Virus record (IMG/VR): IMGVR_UViG_3300036944_000945
Span: 1-43,882 of that record
DNA length: 43,882 nucleotides
Source of the DNA: a virus
Strand: one strand, 5' to 3'
The notes under the pieces were generated by a model. That model worked only from the letters and a program-made list of their open reading frames with translations, did no database searches and was not told the origin of the DNA. Below are positions 1,131 to 41,323 of this stretch, piece after piece. The position numbers and the translations under genes were made by a program. Positions within the stretch are counted from its first letter, which is position 1. The number at the start of each line of letters is the position of its first letter.

Positions 1131-1448
1131 TCACGCGCGCTTCTTAAAGGTCTCGATGATTGCCAGAACCTGCGCGCGATCCTCGGCCGGAACCGCCATG
1201 ACGGCGTCCAGAAATGACGTGTCCATATCGTATGGGTCGTGATCCAACAGGAAGCCGGGCGTGGTTCCGAGAGCGGGTGCCAGTCTCAGCAGCCATTTAT
1301 GGGACAGTCCGCGCTCGCCGCTCTCGAGCAAGCCGATCACGTTGCCGGCGGTGCCAATCGAATCGGCAAGCTGTTCCTGGGTCATGCGCCGGAACTCCCT
1401 CCATGCGCGGAGGTGGTTTGCGGCGAGCTTTACGGGCGATCTGGCCAT
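1131..1448 (-). CDS. CI-like repressor, XRE-family helix-turn-helix
   Basis: The protein has a classic XRE helix-turn-helix: LRAWREFRRMTQEQLADSIG then NVIGLLESGERGLSHKWLLR, followed by a hydrophobic APALGTTPGFLL segment. There is no LexA-type cleavable peptidase domain, so it is a short repressor whose induction must work without self-cleavage. It is transcribed away from the Cro-like gene and flanked by repeated operators, which supports a role in maintaining lysogeny. I chose the ATG at 1448 because an operator palindrome (1463-1477) would otherwise lie inside the gene. ATGs at 1484 and 1571 are in frame, and none of the three has a clear Shine-Dalgarno sequence. Confidence 0.85.
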   Translation of the reverse strand: MARSPVKLAANHLRAWREFRRMTQEQLADSIGTAGNVIGLLESGERGLSHKWLLRLAPALGTTPGFLLDHDPYDMDTSFLDAVMAVPAEDRAQVLAIIETFKKRA

Positions 1449-1462
1449 GCGCTGACTGGTAG

Positions 1463-1477
1463 ATCGCAGGCTGCGAT
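1463..1477. promoter_or_regulatory. Operator palindrome near the repressor start (ATCGCA-N3-TGCGAT)
   Basis: This perfect inverted repeat shares the TCGCA-N3-TGCGA core with the sites at 1059 and 1519. It sits 15 bp upstream of the preferred repressor start, a position suited to autoregulation. Confidence 0.6.
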
Positions 1478-1507
1478 CGTCCATGTCGATTTTGCGAGGA
1501 TTAAGCC

Positions 1508-1536
1508 TTGCCGTTAACCTCGCATTCTGCGATGTT
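1508..1536 (+). promoter_or_regulatory. Putative rightward early promoter (PR-like)
   Basis: A possible -35 TTGCCG (1508-1513) and a weak -10 GATGTT (1531-1536) are 17 bp apart and overlap the operator at 1519-1533. Transcription would begin near the ATG at 1543, giving an almost leaderless cro mRNA. That would explain the lack of a ribosome-binding site. The match to consensus is weak. Confidence 0.3.
1519..1533. promoter_or_regulatory. Operator in the repressor/cro intergenic region (CTCGCA-N3-TGCGAT)
   Basis: One half matches the OL1 half-site exactly and the other differs at one base. It lies just before the Cro-like gene, where bound repressor would block rightward early transcription. 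An extra half-site TGCGAG lies at 1493-1498. Confidence 0.6.
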
Positions 1537-1542
1537 TCAAAT

Positions 1543-1749
1543 ATGGACAACGTCGATCCCTCATTTGCCAAGCAGTTACAGGACAGCGGCGTCGCCCGTG
1601 GCGGCTATGCCTACGACATTGCCAACGGCCGTCGCGTTCCGAACCAGAAGCTGGCTCTCCGCATATTCCGTGCCACCGGCCGCAAGATCGGGCCCATCGC
1701 CAATCTGCCGGACGAGACCATTGCTGTTCTTGAGCAGGTGTCTCTGTGA
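1543..1749 (+). CDS. Cro-like (YdaS-type) DNA-binding protein (68 aa)
   Basis: The 68-residue protein contains a compact helix-turn-helix, GYAYDIANGRRVPNQKLALR, followed by IFRATGRKIGPIANL. This resembles Cro/YdaS-type phage regulators, which typically have an A-Y-x-I-A-N-G-R core. It is divergent from the CI-like repressor and starts the replication operon, the normal place for a Cro protein. The start at 1543 has no Shine-Dalgarno sequence. It presumably binds the TCGCA-N3-TGCGA operators and favours lytic growth. Binding is inferred, not shown. Confidence 0.75.
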   Translation: MDNVDPSFAKQLQDSGVARGGYAYDIANGRRVPNQKLALRIFRATGRKIGPIANLPDETIAVLEQVSL

Positions 1750-8264: not shown

Positions 8265-8467
8265 TGCAGTTTCTCACACTCGACGACATCAAGCGCGCGT
8301 CCGAGATCGGCGGCGCGCACCTCGACGCACTGGGCAAGTTCGACCTGCGCACCCTGTCCGCGGACGAGTACGTCACCTTCTGCCTGATCATCGTCAATGA
8401 GGCGAACAAGGCCGCGGGCGACCGCATCGTGTCGGCGTGGACGATTCCGGTGGGGGGTCTGGGGTGA
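8264..8467 (+). CDS. Hypothetical small protein (67 aa)
   Basis: The ATG at 8264 overlaps the previous stop by one base. A GTG three bases earlier is an alternative start. The protein is helical and acidic at the start (FLTLDDIKRASEIGGAHLD) and ends GGLG, overlapping the primase start by GTGA. Function is unknown. Its place directly before the primase suggests a replication accessory role. Confidence 0.68.
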   Translation: MQFLTLDDIKRASEIGGAHLDALGKFDLRTLSADEYVTFCLIIVNEANKAAGDRIVSAWTIPVGGLG

Positions 8468-10875
8468 GTTCTCCCTTCTCCGCATCTGCCTCCGACCTGC
8501 AGGCGCTCGGCTACTCTGTCCTGCCGCTGATCCCGGCGGACTGGGCCCAGCACCAGGGTCGCGGGAAATGCCCCGGCGAGTATCGCTCGGGCGGCTGGAA
8601 GGGCATGTCCAAGTGGCAACGGTTCCGTGACACCACGCCGTCGGCGTTCGAGTTGGGGCTGTGGGCCAAGGCGCCGGGCGCGAACATCGGCCTGCTCATG
8701 GGCACGGTGGCGCGCAAGGATCTGCACGTCGTCGTTCTGGATTTTGACGCCCAGGACGCCGACGTGCTGGACACCCTGCTGCGCTCGGCACCCGCGAGTC
8801 CGATGGTCAAGCGTGGCGCAAAGGGCGAGAGCCGGTTCTATCTGGCACCCAAGACGCTGAAGACCGCCTCGTACGACGGGCCCGACGGGCGCCTGCTCGA
8901 TCGCCTGACCGGGTTCGACACGCGCCAGACCGTCGTGCCGCCGTCGATCCACCCGGAAACCGGCAAGCCCTACGTCTGGCTGGCCGGGCCCGTGCGCGCG
9001 GACGAGTTGCCCGTCCTGACAGATGACGACATGACGGCGCTGGAGGAGGCGCTGGAGGTGTGCGGGTGGTCGCGGGAGCGTGTGTCGGCCGGCAAGGATC
9101 GTGCGCCGCGCGCCCCACGTTGCGGCGAGATCGACCCCGATGACATTTGGTCTGAGACGAAGGCGGCGGCGCTTTCTCACCTAGACCAGTGGGTGCCGGC
9201 GCTCGACCTGTACGGATGCAGGCCTGCACGCGGCGGGTTTGAGGCGGTCGCTACATGGCGGGCGTCCAGCACCGGGCAGGCGAACCCGGACCGCAAGCGC
9301 AACCTCTCGATCCAGCGCGACGGCATCAAGGATTTTGGTACGAACGAGACCTATTCGGCGATCGACCTGGTGATGGCCGCTCGGGACTGCGAGCAAGCGG
9401 CGGCGACGGACTGGCTGCGTGAGCGACTGGGCCTGAAGGATGACAGCGTGGTGATCGCGCTCGATATGCCGACGGTGGGCAACGACGACCTGCCTGAGCC
9501 TTTGCGCCCCGTGCCCGTTATCACCCTGCAGGAGTTCGCGGACACGGTGGTCGCGCCCGCTATGGACCGGCTCAAGGTCGAGCACCCTGAATACGCAGAC
9601 GCCCCGCCCGCAACGCCCACCTCCGAGCTTCCCGACGCGCTCACCCGCGCACCCGGCCTTGTCGGCTCGATCACGGACTGGATCTGCGATACGGCGCGCA
9701 AGCCTCAGCGTGCCGGCGCGCTCATGGCGGCGCTTGAGATCGTCGGAACGGCTGCAGGACGCACGTTTTCGGGCCCTACACGCACCGGAACGCACCTGTA
9801 TGGGCTGTTTCTGGCACCGTCTGGCGCGGCCAAGGATCACCCGCTCAAGGCGATCGACCGCGTGCTGCGTGCGGCAACGCTCGGCGCGCATGTCGGGCCC
9901 GGCGAGTTCATGTCCATGTCGGCGCTGGTCTCGCGTCTCAATCGCCAGCCGCTCACGCTCACCTGCATTGACGAGTTCGGCGGCTATCTCGGCCGGATCA
10001 ATGGGCGCAAGGCCTCGCCGCATGAGAAGGCGATCACCCGCACCCTGCGCTCGGCCTGGGGCTCCAGTTTCGACACGATGGCCACGCCTGAATGGGCGGG
10101 CAGGGTAGGGGAGCCGATCTTTTCACCCGCCCTCTCGATCTACGGCGTGTCCACGCACGAGGAGTTCTTCGCCAACCTCGACGGCGCGGACGTGTTCAAC
10201 GGCTTCCTCAATCGCTTTCTGATTTTCTCGACGCACGCCCGTGTTGAGGAGCGCGAGCCGCTGCTGGACAAGACCGCCGTGCCGGATGCGATCGTTGACG
10301 GGCTGGTCGCGATCGTTGCGTCCCTGCCTCCGCTCAGTCGCGCCACCTCGCACAACTCCGCCTCGGACGGCCCCTCGATCGTTGTGCCTTGGGACGACAA
10401 GTATGCGCACCAGGCCTACATGGCATTCGGGCAGGAGTGTGAGCGGCGCGAGCAGGACGCGGTGTTCTTCACCCGCTCGGCGGAGATGGCGCAGCGCATG
10501 GCCACGATCAGGGCGATCGGTCGCGACGGCGCCGCGGCAAAGGTCACGCTCGAGGACATGGACTGGGGTATCGCGCTCGCACGGTGGTCCGCGGAACAGA
10601 CGGTCGAGATGGCCTCGGATTATATGGCCGAGACGCAGCACCAGGGCGAGGCGCAGCGTGTCATTCGTGCGCTGCAGGGGCGCGGCTGGATGACGTTCCG
10701 GGAAATATCCCAGTCGCTCAAGAACCGGCTGAAGGCAAAGGAGTTGCGCGACATGCTGGACGGCCTTGTCGATGGCGGGGATCTGGACCGGCGCGAGGAT
10801 CAGCCGCCGGCAGGGGGGCACAAGATCAAGTCGTATCGCGTGTCCGTCGAGCGGCCGTCTCCCGGCGCGTCCTGA
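8464..10875 (+). CDS. Bifunctional primase-polymerase fused to a DUF3987-like helicase region
   Basis: The N-terminal domain matches the prim-pol family: a basic, Trp-containing region (residues about 35-55), then GANIGLLMG and the metal-binding VLDFDAQDAD (aspartates at 93 and 95). The second half resembles DUF3987 phage helicase/primase proteins, with a P-loop-like LAPSGAAKDHP and a Walker B-like CIDEFGGYL. The Walker A lysine is followed by Asp rather than Ser/Thr, which is unusual and could affect ATP use. At 803 residues it is the main replication protein of the phage. The GTG start at 8464 overlaps the previous stop (GTGA). Confidence 0.87.
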   Translation: MSSPFSASASDLQALGYSVLPLIPADWAQHQGRGKCPGEYRSGGWKGMSKWQRFRDTTPSAFELGLWAKAPGANIGLLMGTVARKDLHVVVLDFDAQDADVLDTLLRSAPASPMVKRGAKGESRFYLAPKTLKTASYDGPDGRLLDRLTGFDTRQTVVPPSIHPETGKPYVWLAGPVRADELPVLTDDDMTALEEALEVCGWSRERVSAGKDRAPRAPRCGEIDPDDIWSETKAAALSHLDQWVPALDLYGCRPARGGFEAVATWRASSTGQANPDRKRNLSIQRDGIKDFGTNETYSAIDLVMAARDCEQAAATDWLRERLGLKDDSVVIALDMPTVGNDDLPEPLRPVPVITLQEFADTVVAPAMDRLKVEHPEYADAPPATPTSELPDALTRAPGLVGSITDWICDTARKPQRAGALMAALEIVGTAAGRTFSGPTRTGTHLYGLFLAPSGAAKDHPLKAIDRVLRAATLGAHVGPGEFMSMSALVSRLNRQPLTLTCIDEFGGYLGRINGRKASPHEKAITRTLRSAWGSSFDTMATPEWAGRVGEPIFSPALSIYGVSTHEEFFANLDGADVFNGFLNRFLIFSTHARVEEREPLLDKTAVPDAIVDGLVAIVASLPPLSRATSHNSASDGPSIVVPWDDKYAHQAYMAFGQECERREQDAVFFTRSAEMAQRMATIRAIGRDGAAAKVTLEDMDWGIALARWSAEQTVEMASDYMAETQHQGEAQRVIRALQGRGWMTFREISQSLKNRLKAKELRDMLDGLVDGGDLDRREDQPPAGGHKIKSYRVSVERPSPGAS

Positions 10876-10941: not shown

Positions 10942-10971
10942 CTGATCACGGTTCGCGCCGGCACGCGCGGT

Positions 10972-11172
10972 TCAGTCAGGCTGCGAGTCCTGTGCGCGCG
11001 CGCAGGCGATCGCGGCCCGGATCGCGGCCTGCAGCGTGCCATGCCGGGCGATCAGGGAGTCGAGATCGGCCGCCATATCAGGCGAGGCGCGAAACGTGAC
11101 CTTGCGCCACCCCTCGCCCTGTAGCTTCGATTCATGGGCGGCTGCAGCCTTGCGCCGGGCGGGGCTATTCAT
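10972..11172 (-). CDS. Small basic protein, possible ribbon-helix-helix DNA-binding protein (66 aa)
   Basis: The N-terminus is Lys/Arg-rich (ARRKAAAAHESKL). A WRKVTFRASPDMAADLDSLI segment follows that looks like a ribbon-helix-helix strand and first helix, with TLQAAIRAAIACAR as the second helix. It is the last gene of the leftward island and overlaps the XRE gene by 8 bases. A transcriptional or antitoxin-type regulator is plausible. The family match is structural impression only. Confidence 0.65.
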   Translation of the reverse strand: MNSPARRKAAAAHESKLQGEGWRKVTFRASPDMAADLDSLIARHGTLQAAIRAAIACARAQDSQPD

Positions 11173-11386
11173 TGCGCCAACCGTCCGGCCGGAAGCCGGT
11201 TAGGAATGCCTCAACACACACTGTGACGGGCCCGGATATGTCGCGGGCGCCGGACTCCATATCCCGCACGCGGTCCGGCCCCTTTGTCTCGACCTGGGCA
11301 AGGCGCAAGGCGCGCGCCATATCGCGGAGGGACCATCCCAGGCGGAGGCGCGCGGCCTTTAGATCGGCGGGCGTGGTGATCGTCAA
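11165..11386 (-). CDS. XRE-family regulator at the end of the accessory island (Aca-like position)
   Basis: The 73-residue protein has a helix-turn-helix: LKAARLRLGWSLRDMARALR, then DRVRDMESGARDISGPVTV. Small HTH genes at the end of phage anti-defence operons (aca genes) repress those operons by binding inverted repeats near the promoter. The three transcription units here each have an inverted repeat just before the first gene, which fits that model. Aca identity is not proven: XRE proteins are common. The overlap with the upstream gene is four bases (ATGA). Confidence 0.72.
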   Translation of the reverse strand: MTITTPADLKAARLRLGWSLRDMARALRLAQVETKGPDRVRDMESGARDISGPVTVCVEAFLTGFRPDGWRNE

Positions 11387-11625
11387 AACAGACTCCCCTG
11401 ATTCATGGCCGTTTCATCCCATAGGCCGCCACAAGGCAAGCCTGCAGCCCCTCGCCTTGCCTCGCGCCGGGCGCGCTCTTGTGCGAGTTGGCGAGCGGTT
11501 AGAGGGACGGCCGCGACACCGGGAATCAGGGATTGATCCGCCGCGCCGTCGGCTAGGGTTACAGTTTCGGAGGCGGGGTTAACCGCCTCCGAGTCGTTGC
11601 GCATAGCCCAGGCTGCTAGGTTCAT
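11383..11625 (-). CDS. Hypothetical protein (80 aa)
   Basis: The ATG at 11625 overlaps the upstream stop (TGATG). A GTG at 11628 is an alternative. The middle is an Arg/Ala-rich helix (LTARQLAQERARREARRGAA), and the C-terminus is GLPCGGLWDETAMNQGSLF. No known domain is visible. It is coupled in the leftward accessory operon. Confidence 0.6.
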   Translation of the reverse strand: MNLAAWAMRNDSEAVNPASETVTLADGAADQSLIPGVAAVPLTARQLAQERARREARRGAAGLPCGGLWDETAMNQGSLF

Positions 11626-12338
11626 CACCGCACCTGCAGGGTATGGGACTCGGCGCCCGTCATAGCGTCAACGAATCGGATTGTGCGAACCGGCTCAACA
11701 ATCGGCGCATCCTCCGGCCACGTTTCCGCATAGACCGAGTCATAATCCTCCGGTTCCGGTTCAACGTATGGCGCCCAGTCCGACTCGGCCGGATAGCAGG
11801 GCGTTCCGCTGATCTCGCGCTCAATCGCCTCTAACAGGGCACCAACGCCCAGACGGTGCAATTCGTCATCCCGATCCGCGCCCATGCCCAGTGACGGCGA
11901 CGCATAGCCGGACACATAGCCGCGCTCGCAAGCGAGATCGGCCGCATAGTCGAGCGCCAACCCCTGATCCGTCACTAGCTTGCGCCGGAATGCGCCGCGA
12001 CGGTGCCATAGATGCGCGCCCATTGCCTGCAGATCGCCGCCGGTATCGCGAAGGCCGCCCGCCCGTGACAGAAACTCGCAAAGGGACATAGGGGCGCGCT
12101 CCGGCTTCACCGGCGCCGGTGCGGGCGTGATGCCCTGCAGGGCGTTTGCAAGGGCTTTGGCCGCTATGCGCCAGTCGGCGCGCTTGTGTGTCGTCTGGGC
12201 GGTCTCAAAGGCCTGCCGGGCGGCCTTGTCCGTCACAAGGGGGGCGAGGGCATGACAGGCCACGCGCCAGCGTTTGCGCGCGCCCGGTTGTCCGGCGCCG
12301 GATTCGGCGGCCTGATAGAGTTTGAGGGCGGGGCTCAT
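11625..12338 (-). CDS. Hypothetical protein with a polyvalent-protein-like domain (237 aa)
   Basis: The N-terminal 70 residues are helical and basic. The middle segment, MSLCEFLSRAGGLRDTGGDL, then MGAHLWHRRGAFRRKLV and ALDYAADLACERGYV, resembles a domain I associate with large polyvalent proteins of phages and plasmids in alphaproteobacteria. Such proteins are often injected with DNA to counter host defences. The C-terminus is acidic. The resemblance is from memory of the pattern, so function stays open. It sits between a 53-residue gene and an 80-residue gene with overlapping stops. Confidence 0.65.
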   Translation of the reverse strand: MSPALKLYQAAESGAGQPGARKRWRVACHALAPLVTDKAARQAFETAQTTHKRADWRIAAKALANALQGITPAPAPVKPERAPMSLCEFLSRAGGLRDTGGDLQAMGAHLWHRRGAFRRKLVTDQGLALDYAADLACERGYVSGYASPSLGMGADRDDELHRLGVGALLEAIEREISGTPCYPAESDWAPYVEPEPEDYDSVYAETWPEDAPIVEPVRTIRFVDAMTGAESHTLQVR

Positions 12339-12496
12339 TGTCCGGCCTCCGACTCGCGGGCCCGCTCAATCGCCTCCGCCAATGCGTCGCGCTGATATGC
12401 GGTTGACGGGCGGCCTTGTGCGAGATTTTCGGCGAGGCGATCAAGAACGGCCGCCAATGCCGGGCCGGACATTCCGGGCCAATTTGTGTGTGTCAT
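12335..12496 (-). CDS. Hypothetical small protein, first gene of a transcription unit (53 aa)
   Basis: It begins MTHTNWPGMSGPALAAVLDR and forms mostly one long helix (AYQRDALAEAIERARESEAG). A good AAGGAAA ribosome-binding site precedes the ATG at 12496, and the palindrome at 12513-12525 lies just upstream. The end overlaps the 237-residue gene by ATGA. Function is unknown. Confidence 0.62.
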   Translation of the reverse strand: MTHTNWPGMSGPALAAVLDRLAENLAQGRPSTAYQRDALAEAIERARESEAGQ

Positions 12497-12512
12497 AGCG
12501 TTTCCTTTCGGC

Positions 12513-12525
12513 GCCCAGTCTGGGC
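12513..12525. promoter_or_regulatory. Palindrome GCCCAG-T-CTGGGC before the 53-residue gene
   Basis: This perfect 6-bp inverted repeat lies 17 bp upstream of the start. The same palindrome, differing only in the central base, precedes ardA at 13161. It could be an operator for the island's XRE protein or a stem at the 5' end of the mRNA. Confidence 0.6.
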
Positions 12526-12551
12526 AATGCGGACTCTAACCGTCCGGCAAA

Positions 12552-12574
12552 CCCGCCCGCGTGATGCGAGCGGG
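12552..12574 (-). terminator. Hairpin downstream of ardA
   Basis: On the minus strand CCCGCTCG pairs with CGGGCGGG (one G-T pair) around a 7-nt loop, followed by a short T-run (TTTG). It lies just after the ardA stop and separates ardA from the next leftward unit. Confidence 0.5.
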
Positions 12575-12586
12575 AAATCGGGGCGG

Positions 12587-13141
12587 TTAGCGCGAGTGAA
12601 GAACGATGATCCCGGCGCTTGCGCTCGAGACGGTGAAGATCTCGCCGCCTAGACGCATATCCCGCGCCCATGCCTCAAAATCGAAATAGCGCGCCACGTC
12701 GTCCGGGACGCCTTCAAGAAAGCCGGTTTCTTCAAGATAGGACTCGGCCCAGTCGGCGAGGGTGTCGCCTTCGCCCGCGTAACAATCATTCCACCAGTCG
12801 GCGACGTCGACGGAGTCCAGGTCGTCAATCCGTTGCGGACAGACGTTGTCCGTATATGCGTCAAGTGCCGGTTCCGCGTGATCGCCAAGCGACTCGGCGC
12901 TTTCCTCAAAGGCTGCAGCAATGGCTAGGGCGGCGGCGCTCGCATATTCGCCTAGCAGATAGGTGACGGCCTTCGGGCCCTCATAGTCAGCTATAAAGTG
13001 TTCCTCCGCGCCGGGCGTGCCTTTCGCCAGCGCGGACGCGATCATCGCCGCGTTTTCGTCCGCGTCCGTCGAGACGTCGCACCAGTCGCCGACTAGGCGG
13101 CCGTTGTTATAACTGGCAAGGCAACCGATCCATGCACGCAT
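12587..13141 (-). CDS. ardA: ArdA antirestriction protein
   Basis: The sequence has the ArdA hallmarks: IGCLASYNNGRLVGDWCDV at the N-terminus, HFIADYEGPKAVTYLLGEY near the middle, and YAGEGDTLADWAESYLEETG, then DVARYFDFEAWARDM at the C-terminus. At 184 residues it is the usual length. ArdA is an acidic DNA mimic that dimerises and inhibits type I restriction-modification enzymes, protecting incoming DNA. The ATG at 13141 follows a GGAGAG ribosome-binding site. The gene is flanked by hairpins and has its own palindrome upstream, so it is probably a separate transcription unit suited to early expression. Confidence 0.93.
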   Translation of the reverse strand: MRAWIGCLASYNNGRLVGDWCDVSTDADENAAMIASALAKGTPGAEEHFIADYEGPKAVTYLLGEYASAAALAIAAAFEESAESLGDHAEPALDAYTDNVCPQRIDDLDSVDVADWWNDCYAGEGDTLADWAESYLEETGFLEGVPDDVARYFDFEAWARDMRLGGEIFTVSSASAGIIVLHSR

Positions 13142-13160
13142 ATCAATCTCTCCAATAGGC

Positions 13161-13173
13161 GCCCAGACTGGGC
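13161..13173. promoter_or_regulatory. Palindrome GCCCAG-A-CTGGGC before ardA
   Basis: This perfect inverted repeat lies 20 bp upstream of the ardA start and matches the one at 12513-12525. Both are followed on the minus strand by GCC and then the ribosome-binding site. Confidence 0.6.
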
Positions 13174-13200
13174 AAACAGAACGCACTGGCGTTCAAGAAA

Positions 13201-13221
13201 CCGGCCGCCATTGACGGCCGG
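13201..13221 (-). terminator. Terminator upstream of ardA, ending the first island unit
   Basis: On the minus strand CCGGCCG pairs with CGGCCGG around a 7-nt loop and is followed by GTTTCTT-like T-rich sequence. It lies 17 bp beyond the stop of the 134-residue gene. Confidence 0.65.
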
Positions 13222-13237
13222 AAACTAGAGCGTCGGC

Positions 13238-13642
13238 TTAGCGGGTGAACTCCCAGGCGACCGCGTGGGCGTTGACGACACCGGTTCCGCCCGTCGGGAC
13301 AAAGCGAACCGCCACGCCCGTCCATGGCGTGAAGTCATCCGCGCTCTTGCCGCAAAAACGGTGCGGCTCGCCGATCACCACGACTCCCAGTCCCTTTGCG
13401 CCCGGCGCGATAAGCGAACCGGCGGCGCCCATGGGGATTGAGAGAGACCAGCCCCTTTCCCATGCAAGCCGCTTAACCCGGTTCGCCTGCGATTCTTCGC
13501 CGCGATCTGCAGCGTCCCAGGTGTAGGGGTTGCGATCCAAGCCATAGCCATGGGCTCGAGCGTCGGCACCGTCGGCGTTGAACGGTGCGGGATCAAACGG
13601 GGCGCAATAGCGAGGCGCGCGGGCGGAGATTGAAGCTGTCAT
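13238..13642 (-). CDS. Hypothetical protein (134 aa)
   Basis: I chose the ATG at 13642, which follows a GGGCGGGG ribosome-binding site inside the end of the upstream gene. A TTG at 13648 is possible. The sequence (HGYGLDRNPYTWDAADRGEE, then LAWERGWSLSIPMGAAGSL) is mixed alpha/beta with a Gly-rich middle and no membrane segment. No family is recognised. It is the last gene of the first island unit and is followed by a terminator, just upstream of ardA, so an anti-defence role is possible by association only. Confidence 0.65.
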   Translation of the reverse strand: MTASISARAPRYCAPFDPAPFNADGADARAHGYGLDRNPYTWDAADRGEESQANRVKRLAWERGWSLSIPMGAAGSLIAPGAKGLGVVVIGEPHRFCGKSADDFTPWTGVAVRFVPTGGTGVVNAHAVAWEFTR

Positions 13643-13644
13643 AA

Positions 13645-13854
13645 TCAATACCCCGCCCAGGCTTTCATCGCGCCCGGCGCCGTGAACGTCGGCCGCTCAA
13701 AAGTCTCGCTCCCGTCACGATGCGAGACGCTGCAGCAAAGGCCGGACATTACGCCCGCCTCGCTCATTACCGCCCGGCGCCCCCAGTCATGCGAGCGAGC
13801 CCATAGCAGCCAGCCCAGGCGGGCGTTGGGCGTCATATCGGCGAAGGGAGTCAT
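13645..13854 (-). CDS. Hypothetical small protein (69 aa)
   Basis: It is coupled to the upstream gene by an ATGA overlap (13851-13854). The sequence is Trp- and Met-rich (LGWLLWARSHDWGRRAVMSE) with a CCSVSHRDGSETFERPTF strand region. No known motif is seen. It is one of four small genes in the first island unit. Confidence 0.62.
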   Translation of the reverse strand: MTPFADMTPNARLGWLLWARSHDWGRRAVMSEAGVMSGLCCSVSHRDGSETFERPTFTAPGAMKAWAGY

Positions 13855-14039
13855 TGCGCCCGCTCCACAACATACAGCGATCCGTTAGCGGCGAAGGCGT
13901 CGGCCGCATCGTGGTCCGCGTCATAGTCGGACTGAACGAGCGGGAACGGGATAGCCTGCAGGGCATCGGCAATAGTGGCGAAGGTGCCGAGATAGCGGCG
14001 GCGGTATGCGCAATCGGCGTTCAAGAGATCGTATGCCAT
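13851..14039 (-). CDS. Hypothetical small acidic protein (62 aa)
   Basis: The protein is acidic (LVQSDYDADHDAADAFAANG) and ends SLYVVERAQ, overlapping the next gene by ATGA. Acidic, small and encoded beside ardA, it fits the general look of anti-defence proteins, but nothing in the sequence identifies a target. Confidence 0.62.
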   Translation of the reverse strand: MAYDLLNADCAYRRRYLGTFATIADALQAIPFPLVQSDYDADHDAADAFAANGSLYVVERAQ

Positions 14040-14042
14040 AAC

Positions 14043-14270
14043 CTAGCACTCCCCATAAAGAGCGCCGCCCATGAGCGGCTCGCTCCAAACGTCCCAGGCC
14101 GCGACATAGGCGCCGCCCTGATCCGTCGTCACGGTCACATTGAGACGGACAATCTCAATCCCGTCGTCACTGGCGAAAATCGCCGCGCCTTCAATGTCGG
14201 CCGTCTCGCCGCCGCGGGCGTGCCAATCGGTGACATAGGCTTTTGCGCTTTCGATAGTCAGCACTTGCAT
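14043..14270 (-). CDS. Hypothetical protein, first gene of the accessory island (75 aa)
   Basis: The ATG at 14270 has a GGAATGAG ribosome-binding site and follows the strong sigma70-like promoter at 14316-14345. The protein is acidic, with a beta-rich second half (GIEIVRLNVTVTTDQGGAYV, then AAWDVWSEPLMGG). No family is recognised. As the first gene after a strong promoter facing away from the iteron region, it is probably expressed early and strongly. Confidence 0.65.
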   Translation of the reverse strand: MQVLTIESAKAYVTDWHARGGETADIEGAAIFASDDGIEIVRLNVTVTTDQGGAYVAAWDVWSEPLMGGALYGEC

Positions 14271-14285
14271 CGTCTCATTCCATTT

Positions 14286-14305
14286 CAGGCGCCCCGCATC
14301 GGGGC
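14286..14305 (-). promoter_or_regulatory. 5'-leader hairpin GCCCCG/CGGGGC of the island's first unit
   Basis: On the minus strand, GCCCCGATGCGGGGCGCC lies between the predicted transcription start and the ribosome-binding site. The layout (hairpin, GCC, ribosome-binding site) matches the GCCCAG palindromes before the other two units, though the arm sequence differs. Confidence 0.5.
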
Positions 14306-14315
14306 TGACACCCCG

Positions 14316-14345
14316 TATATGCCAGCACATATCAGGCCCCGTCAA
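14316..14345 (-). promoter_or_regulatory. Sigma70-like promoter of the accessory island
   Basis: On the minus strand a -35 box TTGACG (14345-14340) and a -10 box CATATA (14321-14316) are separated by 18 bp. This is the best consensus promoter I can see in the window and it points to the 14270 gene. Confidence 0.65.
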
Positions 14346-14391
14346 TCCCCCTCATTCACATTGCCCATACTTTCAACGCCGACGGGAAAAC

Positions 14392-14660
14392 CGAGTGAGG
14401 ATTCAACCTTCCCCACTCGATCCTCACTTGGATAGTCTAGGGTTGCAAAGCGGCCAGCTCACACCTGCAGCGTGGGCAAGTGGGGTCGAGTGAGGACTCG
14501 TGAATCCTCACTCGATATTTCCAGATTCCTCAATCAATCCAGCACCTTCTCTCTCTAAAACCGAGCGAGTGAGGATTCATAGGGGGGGGGTATATATATA
14601 TCGATAAACGATAAGGGGATGGGTATATACTCCCCCGTCCTCACTCGATCGCCTCACTCG
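14392..14660. repeat. Iteron-like cluster: seven copies of GAGTGAGG, candidate origin or packaging site
   Basis: The core (C)GAGTGAGGA lies on the plus strand at 14392-14404, 14487-14499 and 14566-14578. On the minus strand it lies at 14422-14430 (one mismatch), 14502-14514, 14638-14647 and 14652-14660. Two of them form an 11-bp perfect inverted repeat (14486-14496 and 14505-14515). Three copies end in GATTC or GACTC and one minus copy in GAATC, all GANTC methylation sites. There is no gene here. The site is 0.5 kb before the small terminase gene and between divergent operons, so both replication origin and terminase-binding (pac) site are reasonable. Confidence 0.8.
14581..14636. other. AT-rich segment inside the iteron region
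   Basis: A G-run, then TATATATATATCGATAA, a short direct repeat CGATAA, and GGGTATATACTCCCCC form an AT-rich island in otherwise GC-rich DNA. Its ends are partly complementary (GGGGG-TATATA against TATATAC-TCCCCC). It looks like a DNA-unwinding element beside iterons. Confidence 0.55.
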
Positions 14661-14758
14661 ACAAAAAGCGATTACCAGCCGCTAACCCGCAACCCGCATA
14701 TTGACCTTGCGTTGGCGCGCCCCGGTCACTGATCCCGCCCCGTTTACAGGGGGTGACG

Positions 14759-39948: not shown

Positions 39949-41106
39949 TCACGCCGAGACGATTCCCCGCTTCACCTGAGCCGCCCTCGCCACCGCCGTA
40001 TCGCGGGGCAGATACACGCTCAGGATCGAGTTCACGCTCGTCAGCGCATGGCCTGTGATGGCCGCGATCTCGGGCACGGTGCAGCCAGCCCGCGCCAACT
40101 GCACGATGCAGGAGTGCCGCAGTTGCTTGAGGATCAGCGGCCGGCCGCCAGCCTTGACCGCGGCGACGCGCACCCAGGCGAAGGTCTTGGACAGGCGGTT
40201 CTCGGTGTATGCCTTGCCGGTGCGGTCGTTGCGGAACAGGAACAGGTGGCCGTCACCAGCCTCAGCCAGCATCGCCCGCAGGCCCATCGAGACCTCGATC
40301 GACACCGGCTCGTCGGTCTTGGACTGGCGGAACGAGAAGACGCCGCGCTCGGCATCGTACTCGGCGCCCGGACGGAACGCGCGCACGTCGGTCAGGCGCT
40401 GGCCGATCTCCCACTCCAGCAGGATGATAAGGGCGATCGAGGGCACGCCCGTATCGCGCGCAGCCTTCACATAGCAGTCGACGTCCTTCTGTTCCCAGAT
40501 CGTCGCCTTGGTCTTTGGCACCTTGATGCGGATGCCGCGTGCCGGGTTGTCCGTACGCCAGCCCTTGTTGATCGCCTGCTCGAGCACGAGGCGCAGGACC
40601 GCAGCGGTGTGCTTCTTGGCCGTATGCCGTGCGACCCGCGCCGTGCCGTCCGGTTCTGTGCCCGCGTCAAAGCTGGACAGGAACTGCAGGATGGCGGAGC
40701 GGGGCAGGGCGCTCGGGTCTGGGTGGCTGCACGATTTCGACCATGCCAGGATCTTCTTGAACCCAGTCTCGTATCCGACGCGCGTCTTCTCCGACAGTGC
40801 GGCCCACTCAGGAGACCGCTGCAGGGCGTCCACAAGCGTCGACAGGCTGCGCTCAGGTGGTCGGACGATGTCGCCGGTCTTCGCTTGCATGAGGGCCCCG
40901 TACAGGGCCTCAGCGTCCTTCTTGATGGCAGCGACCTCAGCCGCGTCCAGCGTGCCGCGCCGTTCAGCCGTGCGAGGGAGCGGTATCGCTGGCGACCAGC
41001 CGGAGGGACGCAGGCGTGCCGGAACCTGAAAGTACGCGCGGCTCGTGCCGTCGGCGCGCTTCTTGAGGACGACGTATCTGCCCAGCGAGAGCGTCACGGT
41101 AGGCAT
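39949..41106 (-). CDS. int: Tyrosine recombinase (phage integrase)
   Basis: The catalytic set is visible in the 385-residue protein: R237 in GQRLTDVRAF, K327-x-x-R330-H in LKQLRHSCIV (Lys replaces the more common His of the HxxR box), H353 in GHALTSVNS and the nucleophile Y365 in LSVYLP. The N-terminus RYVVLKKRADGTSRAYFQVP is an arm-binding-type region. It recombines attP (adjacent) with the host tRNA-Pro attB. I prefer the ATG at 41106; 41148 is in frame but would overlap xis by 185 bases instead of 143. It is the last gene of the leftward operon. Confidence 0.92.
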   Translation of the reverse strand: MPTVTLSLGRYVVLKKRADGTSRAYFQVPARLRPSGWSPAIPLPRTAERRGTLDAAEVAAIKKDAEALYGALMQAKTGDIVRPPERSLSTLVDALQRSPEWAALSEKTRVGYETGFKKILAWSKSCSHPDPSALPRSAILQFLSSFDAGTEPDGTARVARHTAKKHTAAVLRLVLEQAINKGWRTDNPARGIRIKVPKTKATIWEQKDVDCYVKAARDTGVPSIALIILLEWEIGQRLTDVRAFRPGAEYDAERGVFSFRQSKTDEPVSIEVSMGLRAMLAEAGDGHLFLFRNDRTGKAYTENRLSKTFAWVRVAAVKAGGRPLILKQLRHSCIVQLARAGCTVPEIAAITGHALTSVNSILSVYLPRDTAVARAAQVKRGIVSA

Positions 41107-41323
41107 CGGGCTTGAATGTCCATGCATCGGCGGGGTCGGGGGTTTCATCCTGCGCCATCCCTAGAGCTCTGAGAACCGCGTCTCGGTCATAGATCCCGCC
41201 CCGGCCGCCGCGGTCGATCGGCATGGGCATGACGCCGGCGCGTTGGCGCGAGCGGAGCGTGGACCGGCTGTAGCCGGCGAGGGCGAGCACCTGGGGCAGA
41301 TGAAGGCGGGGAGGGAGGCTCAT
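40964..41323 (-). CDS. xis: Excisionase-like (AlpA/MerR-type winged helix) protein
   Basis: The N-terminal 55 residues are a MerR/AlpA-like helix-turn-helix (LHLPQVLALAGYSRSTLRSR, then GVMPMPIDRGGRGGIYDRDA), typical of excisionases and AlpA regulators. The start at 41323 overlaps the upstream stop (ATGA). The C-terminal half, rich in Arg, overlaps the integrase gene for about 143 bases in another frame, an unusually long overlap. The excisionase role is inferred from the domain and position directly before int. Confidence 0.75.
   Translation of the reverse strand: MSLPPRLHLPQVLALAGYSRSTLRSRQRAGVMPMPIDRGGRGGIYDRDAVLRALGMAQDETPDPADAWTFKPDAYRDALAGQIRRPQEARRRHEPRVLSGSGTPASLRLVASDTAPSHG

Follow-up and report, generated by a model that had tools for sequence, protein, structure and literature searches.

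Several described systems resemble parts of the locus analysed here. The known Aca proteins are helix-turn-helix (HTH) repressors whose genes come last in anti-CRISPR operons, and one of them, Aca2, reportedly binds RNA as well as DNA and blocks translation via mRNA stem-loops. An Aca2-RNA complex has been reported (PMC11239489). Furthermore, plasmid leading regions carry anti-defence islands with the single-stranded DNA promoters Frpo/ssi (PMC11541004), and in cluster K mycobacteriophages the repeated elements SAS/ESAS, which contain inverted repeats, are found before unrelated mosaic early genes; the arms of ESAS show no compensatory changes (PMC3203893). The present analysis concerns a leftward gene cassette around ardA in the IMG/VR virus record IMGVR_UViG_3300036944_000945, which was analysed over its entire length of 43,882 bases (hereafter the window). 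We read it, with a probability of roughly 0.55, as a modular anti-restriction cassette in which the inhibitor gene occupies an exchangeable slot and which is autoregulated in an Aca2-like manner by the HTH protein g9 from the operon end.

The cassette comprises ten leftward open reading frames (ORFs; 10972-14270, g1 to g10 in the order of transcription) between the rightward primase gene (8437-10875) and further rightward genes that start from 14753. The genes for RusA, a Sak4-like annealing protein, a Cas4-type exonuclease, a helicase and the primase lie 5' of it, the terminase and portal genes 3', all of them rightward. Codon-usage scoring assigns the coding strand to the minus strand (142 versus 0). 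Homologues of nine of the ten ORFs, g6 being the exception, were found in related phages, i.e. in IMG/VR loci (numbered with L) collected by scans with g7, the primase, leader patterns and g9. Eight genes, g1-g4 and g7-g10, are under purifying selection with ratios of non-synonymous to synonymous substitutions (dN/dS) of 0.04-0.42, while the ratio for ardA is unreliable because its pairs are near saturation (dS > 1.3). The cassette is organised into three translation units, namely g1-g4, ardA and g6-g10, behind a single conserved promoter, P1.

The fifth gene (12587-13141, minus strand; 184 aa) is solidly assigned to ArdA by homology. It matches PF07275 over model positions 1-150 of 155 (4.6e-29, 102.5 bits with a cut-off of 27), and PHROGs supports the same identity. 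ArdA is a DNA mimic, and its characterised relatives inhibit type I restriction enzymes; the strongly acidic composition of the protein (pI 4.05) is as expected of such a mimic, and the window protein may well act in the same way. The ATG at 13141 was taken as start instead of the GTG at 13186, and matches to PADLOC Cas7e and Pfam Cas_CT1975, which lie under any threshold, were disregarded.

The position of ardA, the third slot of the cassette, is exchangeable. ArdA occupies it in the window, L145 and L150, and a second ArdA lineage is among its occupants in other phages. A half-ArdA is found in L148 and L157 (PF07275 8.6e-5, below cut-off; phrog_2059 1.6e-7), the acidic family n16 (130-140 aa, pI 4.1-4.25) in L014 (6557-6979) and L199 (3508-3900), the likewise acidic n25 in L159, and n2 or n6 in L153, L147, L160 and L162. 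Homologues of n16 represent the first gene of T7-like Prochlorococcus P-SCSP1 phages and also exist in phages of Brevundimonas, Erythrobacter and Thiohalocapsa. In T7, the first-gene position is occupied by ocr. Because of their position and acidity, the alternatives in this slot are candidate inhibitors. A truncated ArdA stands in the slot of L143, L144 and L165 (L143 about 10942-11286), where it continues in frame into the final residues encoded by a 54-aa gene; the fusion point corresponds to a 13-bp shared sequence, TGGATCAGGCGCG, and leader A, g7 and g8 are deleted. The apparent membership of the 54-aa gene in the ArdA cluster was an artefact of the L143 fusion.

The slot is bounded by two leaders of approximately 90 nt, which are kept between non-homologous genes. 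Leader B (13142-13237, minus strand) contains the terminator-like hairpin T1 (13221-13201), the inverted repeat H2 (13194-13179), the hairpin H3-2 (13173-13161) and a Shine-Dalgarno (SD) sequence. Leader A (12497-12586, minus strand) has the same order, with a terminator-like hairpin (12574-12552), an inverted repeat (12546-12530), H3-3 (12525-12513) and an SD sequence. Unit 1 behind P1 carries H3-1 in its leader (14291-14305, minus strand), which reads GCCCCGATGCGGGGC followed by GCC. Hence, H3 is common to all three leaders in the form GCCCN-loop-N'GGGC-GC, adjoining the ribosome-binding site. When the window cassette was compared by BLASTN with eight relatives, isolated matches fell on leader B in all eight and on leader A in seven, and the genes beside them were non-homologous on one or both sides; altogether, leader B is conserved in nine further genomes and leader A in eight, each time between unrelated genes. 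The structure of leader B is conserved as well. Across ten sequences all three helices are paired in every case, six pairs show two-sided changes, and the covariation score of 0.248 compares with 0.051 in shuffled alignments, none of 500 of which matched it. The fifth pair of H3 is A-U, G-C or C-G, depending on the phage. Hairpins with the GCGC tail occur exclusively on the cassette strand, 5' of unit starts. Every full cassette, that of the window included, has three of them, the deleted cassette has two and L166 one, and loci without g9 have none. These structured, gene-independent leaders, which the first-pass annotation had not noticed, are the new part of the cassette and its most unusual feature.

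A search of Rfam gave no match at the curated level. Promoters inside leaders A and B were considered and dismissed, as a start at normal spacing would fall within the hairpin. A role of H3 as double-stranded DNA (dsDNA) operator is less likely, because its loop varies between 3 and 5 nt, which shifts the spacing of the half-sites while the pairing is kept. Among the matches listed for the leader palindrome in the contig database, which came from many phyla, none that was checked had framework genes, and they were taken as chance matches.

The gene g9 (11165-11386, minus strand; 73 aa), the second-last of the cassette, encodes an XRE-type HTH protein (phrog_14076, 8e-8; HTH fold at a mean pLDDT of 92), for which we propose an Aca-like regulatory role. 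Compared with solved folds, its model matched Aca2 with Z scores of 9.3 (7ezy) and 9.1 (7vjo), Aca10 with 8.7 and Aca1 with 7.7. Of 22 records searched with a g9 profile, 11 have the gene, and the same 11 are the ones that carry H3; among them is L166, with a primase of only 42% identity. Counting the window and L199, H3 and g9 occur together in 13 of 13 records as opposed to 0 of 11, the 13 being not independent by descent, as three are near-identical. The best test is the out-of-sample record L199, which was fetched through g9 alone; its TerL is 37% identical and no matching primase is found beside its cassette. Its P1 leader has TTGACA and a palindrome, then the hairpin GCCCC-GCC-GGGGC-GCC, and leader B with hairpin precedes the gene of the n16 family, leader A with hairpin g7. 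The record L200 ends before the leaders. Further matches to the P1-leader pattern (L206-L208) had no cassette genes and were regarded as chance.

P1 (14316-14345, minus strand) consists of the -35 box TTGACG (14345-14340) and the palindrome TATGTGCTGGCATATA (14331-14316), an operator candidate lying over the -10 region. TTGAC and the palindrome are kept in seven aligned relatives, and L148/L005 and L150/L006 have an extra palindrome copy 5' of the -35 box. The TTG at 14345 was rejected as a gene start, since this site is the -35 box, and g1 starts at the ATG at 14270; relatives without g1 still conserve the initial 20 codons of the TTG ORF. P1 is adjoined by a repeat cluster (14384-14651) of CGAGTGAGGAYTC and GTGAGGA copies, which resembles origin iterons or an array of operators. 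GTGAGGA occurs six times in the window, always within 14346-14752, and the CGAGTGAGGAYTC repeats are present in either orientation next to an AT-rich region. The cluster is kept in L145, L153 and L147, and L166 has other repeats.

In the mechanism we propose, a burst of ArdA and its companions would be produced early from P1 after DNA entry, and g9 would then shut the cassette off via the palindrome over the -10 region. Like Aca2, g9 may also bind the mRNA hairpins flanking the ribosome-binding sites, including that of its own unit. The identical leaders could in addition provide homology for the annealing protein and exonuclease of the phage (2315-5134), so that the inhibitor is swapped and the control remains undisturbed; given that the phage carries such annealing genes, a function of the leaders as recombination joints is plausible and compatible with the regulatory one. 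A further step, which we make only tentatively, is that g9 represents a dual DNA/RNA-binding repressor without sequence kinship to Aca2 and that the leaders act as standard sockets, which place any inserted inhibitor under the control of P1 and g9; in that case, n16 and n25 would represent novel families of anti-restriction proteins. If the main reading is right, phages can exchange counter-defence genes yet retain tight control over them, and a second lineage of HTH regulators may read mRNA hairpins besides DNA. It would also give a rule for picking new anti-restriction proteins, namely the gene between two leaders; the combination of hairpin and XRE gene has already predicted the layout of the unrelated phage L199.

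However, several results weigh against this interpretation. The matches of g9 to Aca folds are tied in Z score with the unrelated HTH proteins HigA2 and MqsA, therefore the fold alone does not make g9 an Aca protein, and no significant sequence match was found between g9 and solved Aca chains in the PDB. The -10 region of P1 is poor. The first-pass annotation had seen here the best consensus promoter of the window, which was not borne out, because a sigma-70 scan finds no leftward promoter at this place and a position weight matrix scan puts the TTGACG site at 14345 only 16th on its own, the minus strand. The covariation of H3 rests mostly on one base pair, and leader A is nearly invariant and thus has little covariation of its own. 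Moreover, five-pair hairpins of the H3 form are common by chance at this base composition (shuffle mean of 2.8 for the window), so that H3 is made notable only by its position, tail and conservation. Finally, g9, P1 and the hairpins could co-occur merely through joint inheritance of the module.

An alternative is an ordinary moron-like accessory cluster, in which ArdA and unrelated small genes are accompanied by a DNA-binding XRE autorepressor and the hairpins are passive terminators, mRNA stabilisers or translation insulators that need no protein. We regard this explanation as possible but doubtful. The T1 hairpins indeed finish in short T runs, the P1 hairpin lies near the presumed 5' end of the mRNA where a stem-loop would protect it, and many XRE proteins bind DNA only. 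Nevertheless, passive hairpins are not expected to track g9 across different phage backbones or to keep the GCCC/GGGCGC identity in H3 beyond what stem strength demands. It is rather unlikely that the leaders serve mainly as recombination linkers for slot swaps by the annealing protein and that regulation is secondary, even if conserved blocks of approximately 90 nt between non-homologous genes, with genes for a Sak4-like annealing protein and a Cas4-type exonuclease nearby, are what one would expect of such linkers. Recombination needs sequence identity only, but leader B keeps its pairing through compensatory changes, and the leader ends coincide with the stop codon on one side and the SD/start codon on the other.

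An immunity or lysogeny control region, with g9 as lysogenic repressor, an operon expressed from the prophage and ArdA as superinfection or host-benefit gene, appears improbable to us. The XRE gene at the operon end would fit, as would a weak tyrosine-recombinase match (40042-40434, minus strand), which suggests a temperate phage. But a separate HTH gene (1131-1571, minus strand), which lies over the Pfam cut-off, is the better repressor candidate, and g9 is placed at the operon end and not promoter-proximal. The separate HTH gene is situated by rightward early genes and, at 1514-1517, by divergent promoter-like sites, and may encode the immunity repressor. The recombinase match stays below cut-off and lies in a 399-aa ORF (39949-41148, minus strand) with similar ORFs in the relatives; judged from such genes, the host phage group is probably temperate.

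Besides ArdA and g9, the cassette contains a recurrent framework of g7, g8, g9 and g10, often with g1 and g2, whereas the other positions are swapped among relatives. All genes named in the following are on the minus strand. The acidic proteins g1 (14043-14270; 75 aa, pI 4.05; 88-92% identical in L145, L153 and L150; dN/dS 0.14-0.18) and g2 (13851-14039; 62 aa, pI 4.2; dN/dS 0.09-0.19) are followed by two variable slots, g3 (13645-13854; 69 aa, dN/dS 0.11), which is found only in the window and L145/L007, and g4 (13238-13648; 136 aa), whose residues 26-68 are weakly related to CrpP (NF041856, 2.6e-6, below cut-off). The fourth slot is filled by the 53-aa ORF g6 (12335-12496), for which no relative was found. 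The framework proteins g7 (11625-12338; 237 aa, dN/dS 0.07-0.23) and g8 (11383-11628; 81 aa, dN/dS 0.04-0.14) precede g9. The C-terminal domain of g7 matches part of the LPD22-bearing polyvalent protein of 1773+ aa from Pseudomonas phage HU1, but g7 is a small stand-alone protein. In three distant relatives (L159, L160, L162), g7 is replaced by a leftward protein of 474-496 aa, which combines a g7-like N-terminus with a DNA polymerase III beta sliding clamp that is complete by PF00712, PF02767 and PF02768. The last gene, g10 (10972-11172; 66 aa), encodes a basic protein (pI 9.8). Its monomer model has an extended segment followed by two helices and a best Z score of 3.7, to plant TCP domains.

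Searches of g1-g3 and g6-g8 against Pfam, PHROGs, NCBIfam and PADLOC, the models of the last being for defence and not anti-defence, gave no useful match, and for g1, g2 and g8 the profile searches gave no positive sign of an inhibitor function. The description of ten leftward genes with ardA and an XRE regulator made in the first-pass annotation thus agrees with the ORFs, codon usage, homologues, selection and PF07275, with the starts of g1 and ardA corrected. Its assignment of g10 as ribbon-helix-helix (RHH)-like is at best consistent with the predicted structure, in which an extended segment precedes the second of three helices and no strand is assigned. An anti-restriction cassette with unfamiliar companions is still the best reading and was strengthened by the exchangeable ArdA position. 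In contrast, no test supports the proposal that the window proteins of 62-134 residues are new inhibitors: g1, g2, g7, g8, g9 and g10 belong to the conserved framework and are not swapped quickly, g9 is probably a regulator, the C-terminal domain of g7 recurs in a polyvalent protein of a phage, and the weak CrpP-related match is all that g4 has. Better candidates for new inhibitors than the small genes of the window are those that take the place of ArdA in other phages.

In related IMG/VR phages the cassette is mostly found between primase and terminase. At loci with both markers, it lies between the primase gene and the counterpart of the gene at 14753, and ranges from about 1 kb, in a minimal form without g9, to 3.9 kb. 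Minimal islands with the single leftward gene n19 (159-204 aa) occupy the same place in L146, L149, L152 and L154, and n19 is also the first gene in L143. The g4 proteins of the window and L014 are 96% identical, but the TerL proteins of the same pair only 36%, hence the modules travel between phage backbones. No DNA similarity to the cassette was found among INPHARED phages, the Sinorhizobium phage with the nearest primase lacks an island of this kind, and a primase search of 385 Alphaproteobacteria genomes returned distant matches only, with no prophage or host found.

Compared with known systems, the protein in the third slot resembles other ArdA (PF07275) proteins in full-length homology, length and acidity, but here its phage cassette offers a bounded slot that several alternatives can fill. 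With the Aca operons, and with Aca2 especially, the cassette has in common a small HTH gene near the operon end, a conserved inverted repeat in the promoter, conserved stem-loops by the ribosome-binding sites; the fold of g9 matches Aca structures, but equally well other HTH proteins. The cassette differs in its three hairpin-tagged units and the swapped inhibitor, and in g9, for which no kinship in sequence to solved Aca proteins was detected; no anti-CRISPR was recognised in general profile scans, among which no search was aimed at anti-CRISPRs. Plasmid leading-region islands likewise combine ardA and unfamiliar companions on one strand with structured intergenic DNA and regulator genes, but here the DNA is that of a dsDNA phage, and the hairpin stems of the leaders have no recognisable -35/-10 elements. 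SAS/ESAS are similar as repeated conserved elements with inverted repeats just before the starts of unrelated genes, whereas the leaders differ in sequence, show compensatory changes and exist in three copies only, all in one cassette. The 13-bp SAS GGGATAGGAGCCC is absent from the leaders; a single match with two mismatches lies at another place in the window, as expected by chance. SAS/ESAS and the plasmid leading-region islands are therefore the nearest published layouts, and by the tests made the cassette belongs to neither class. In general, it follows a known anti-restriction layout, and its novelty lies in the structured leaders that are kept independently of the genes they precede.

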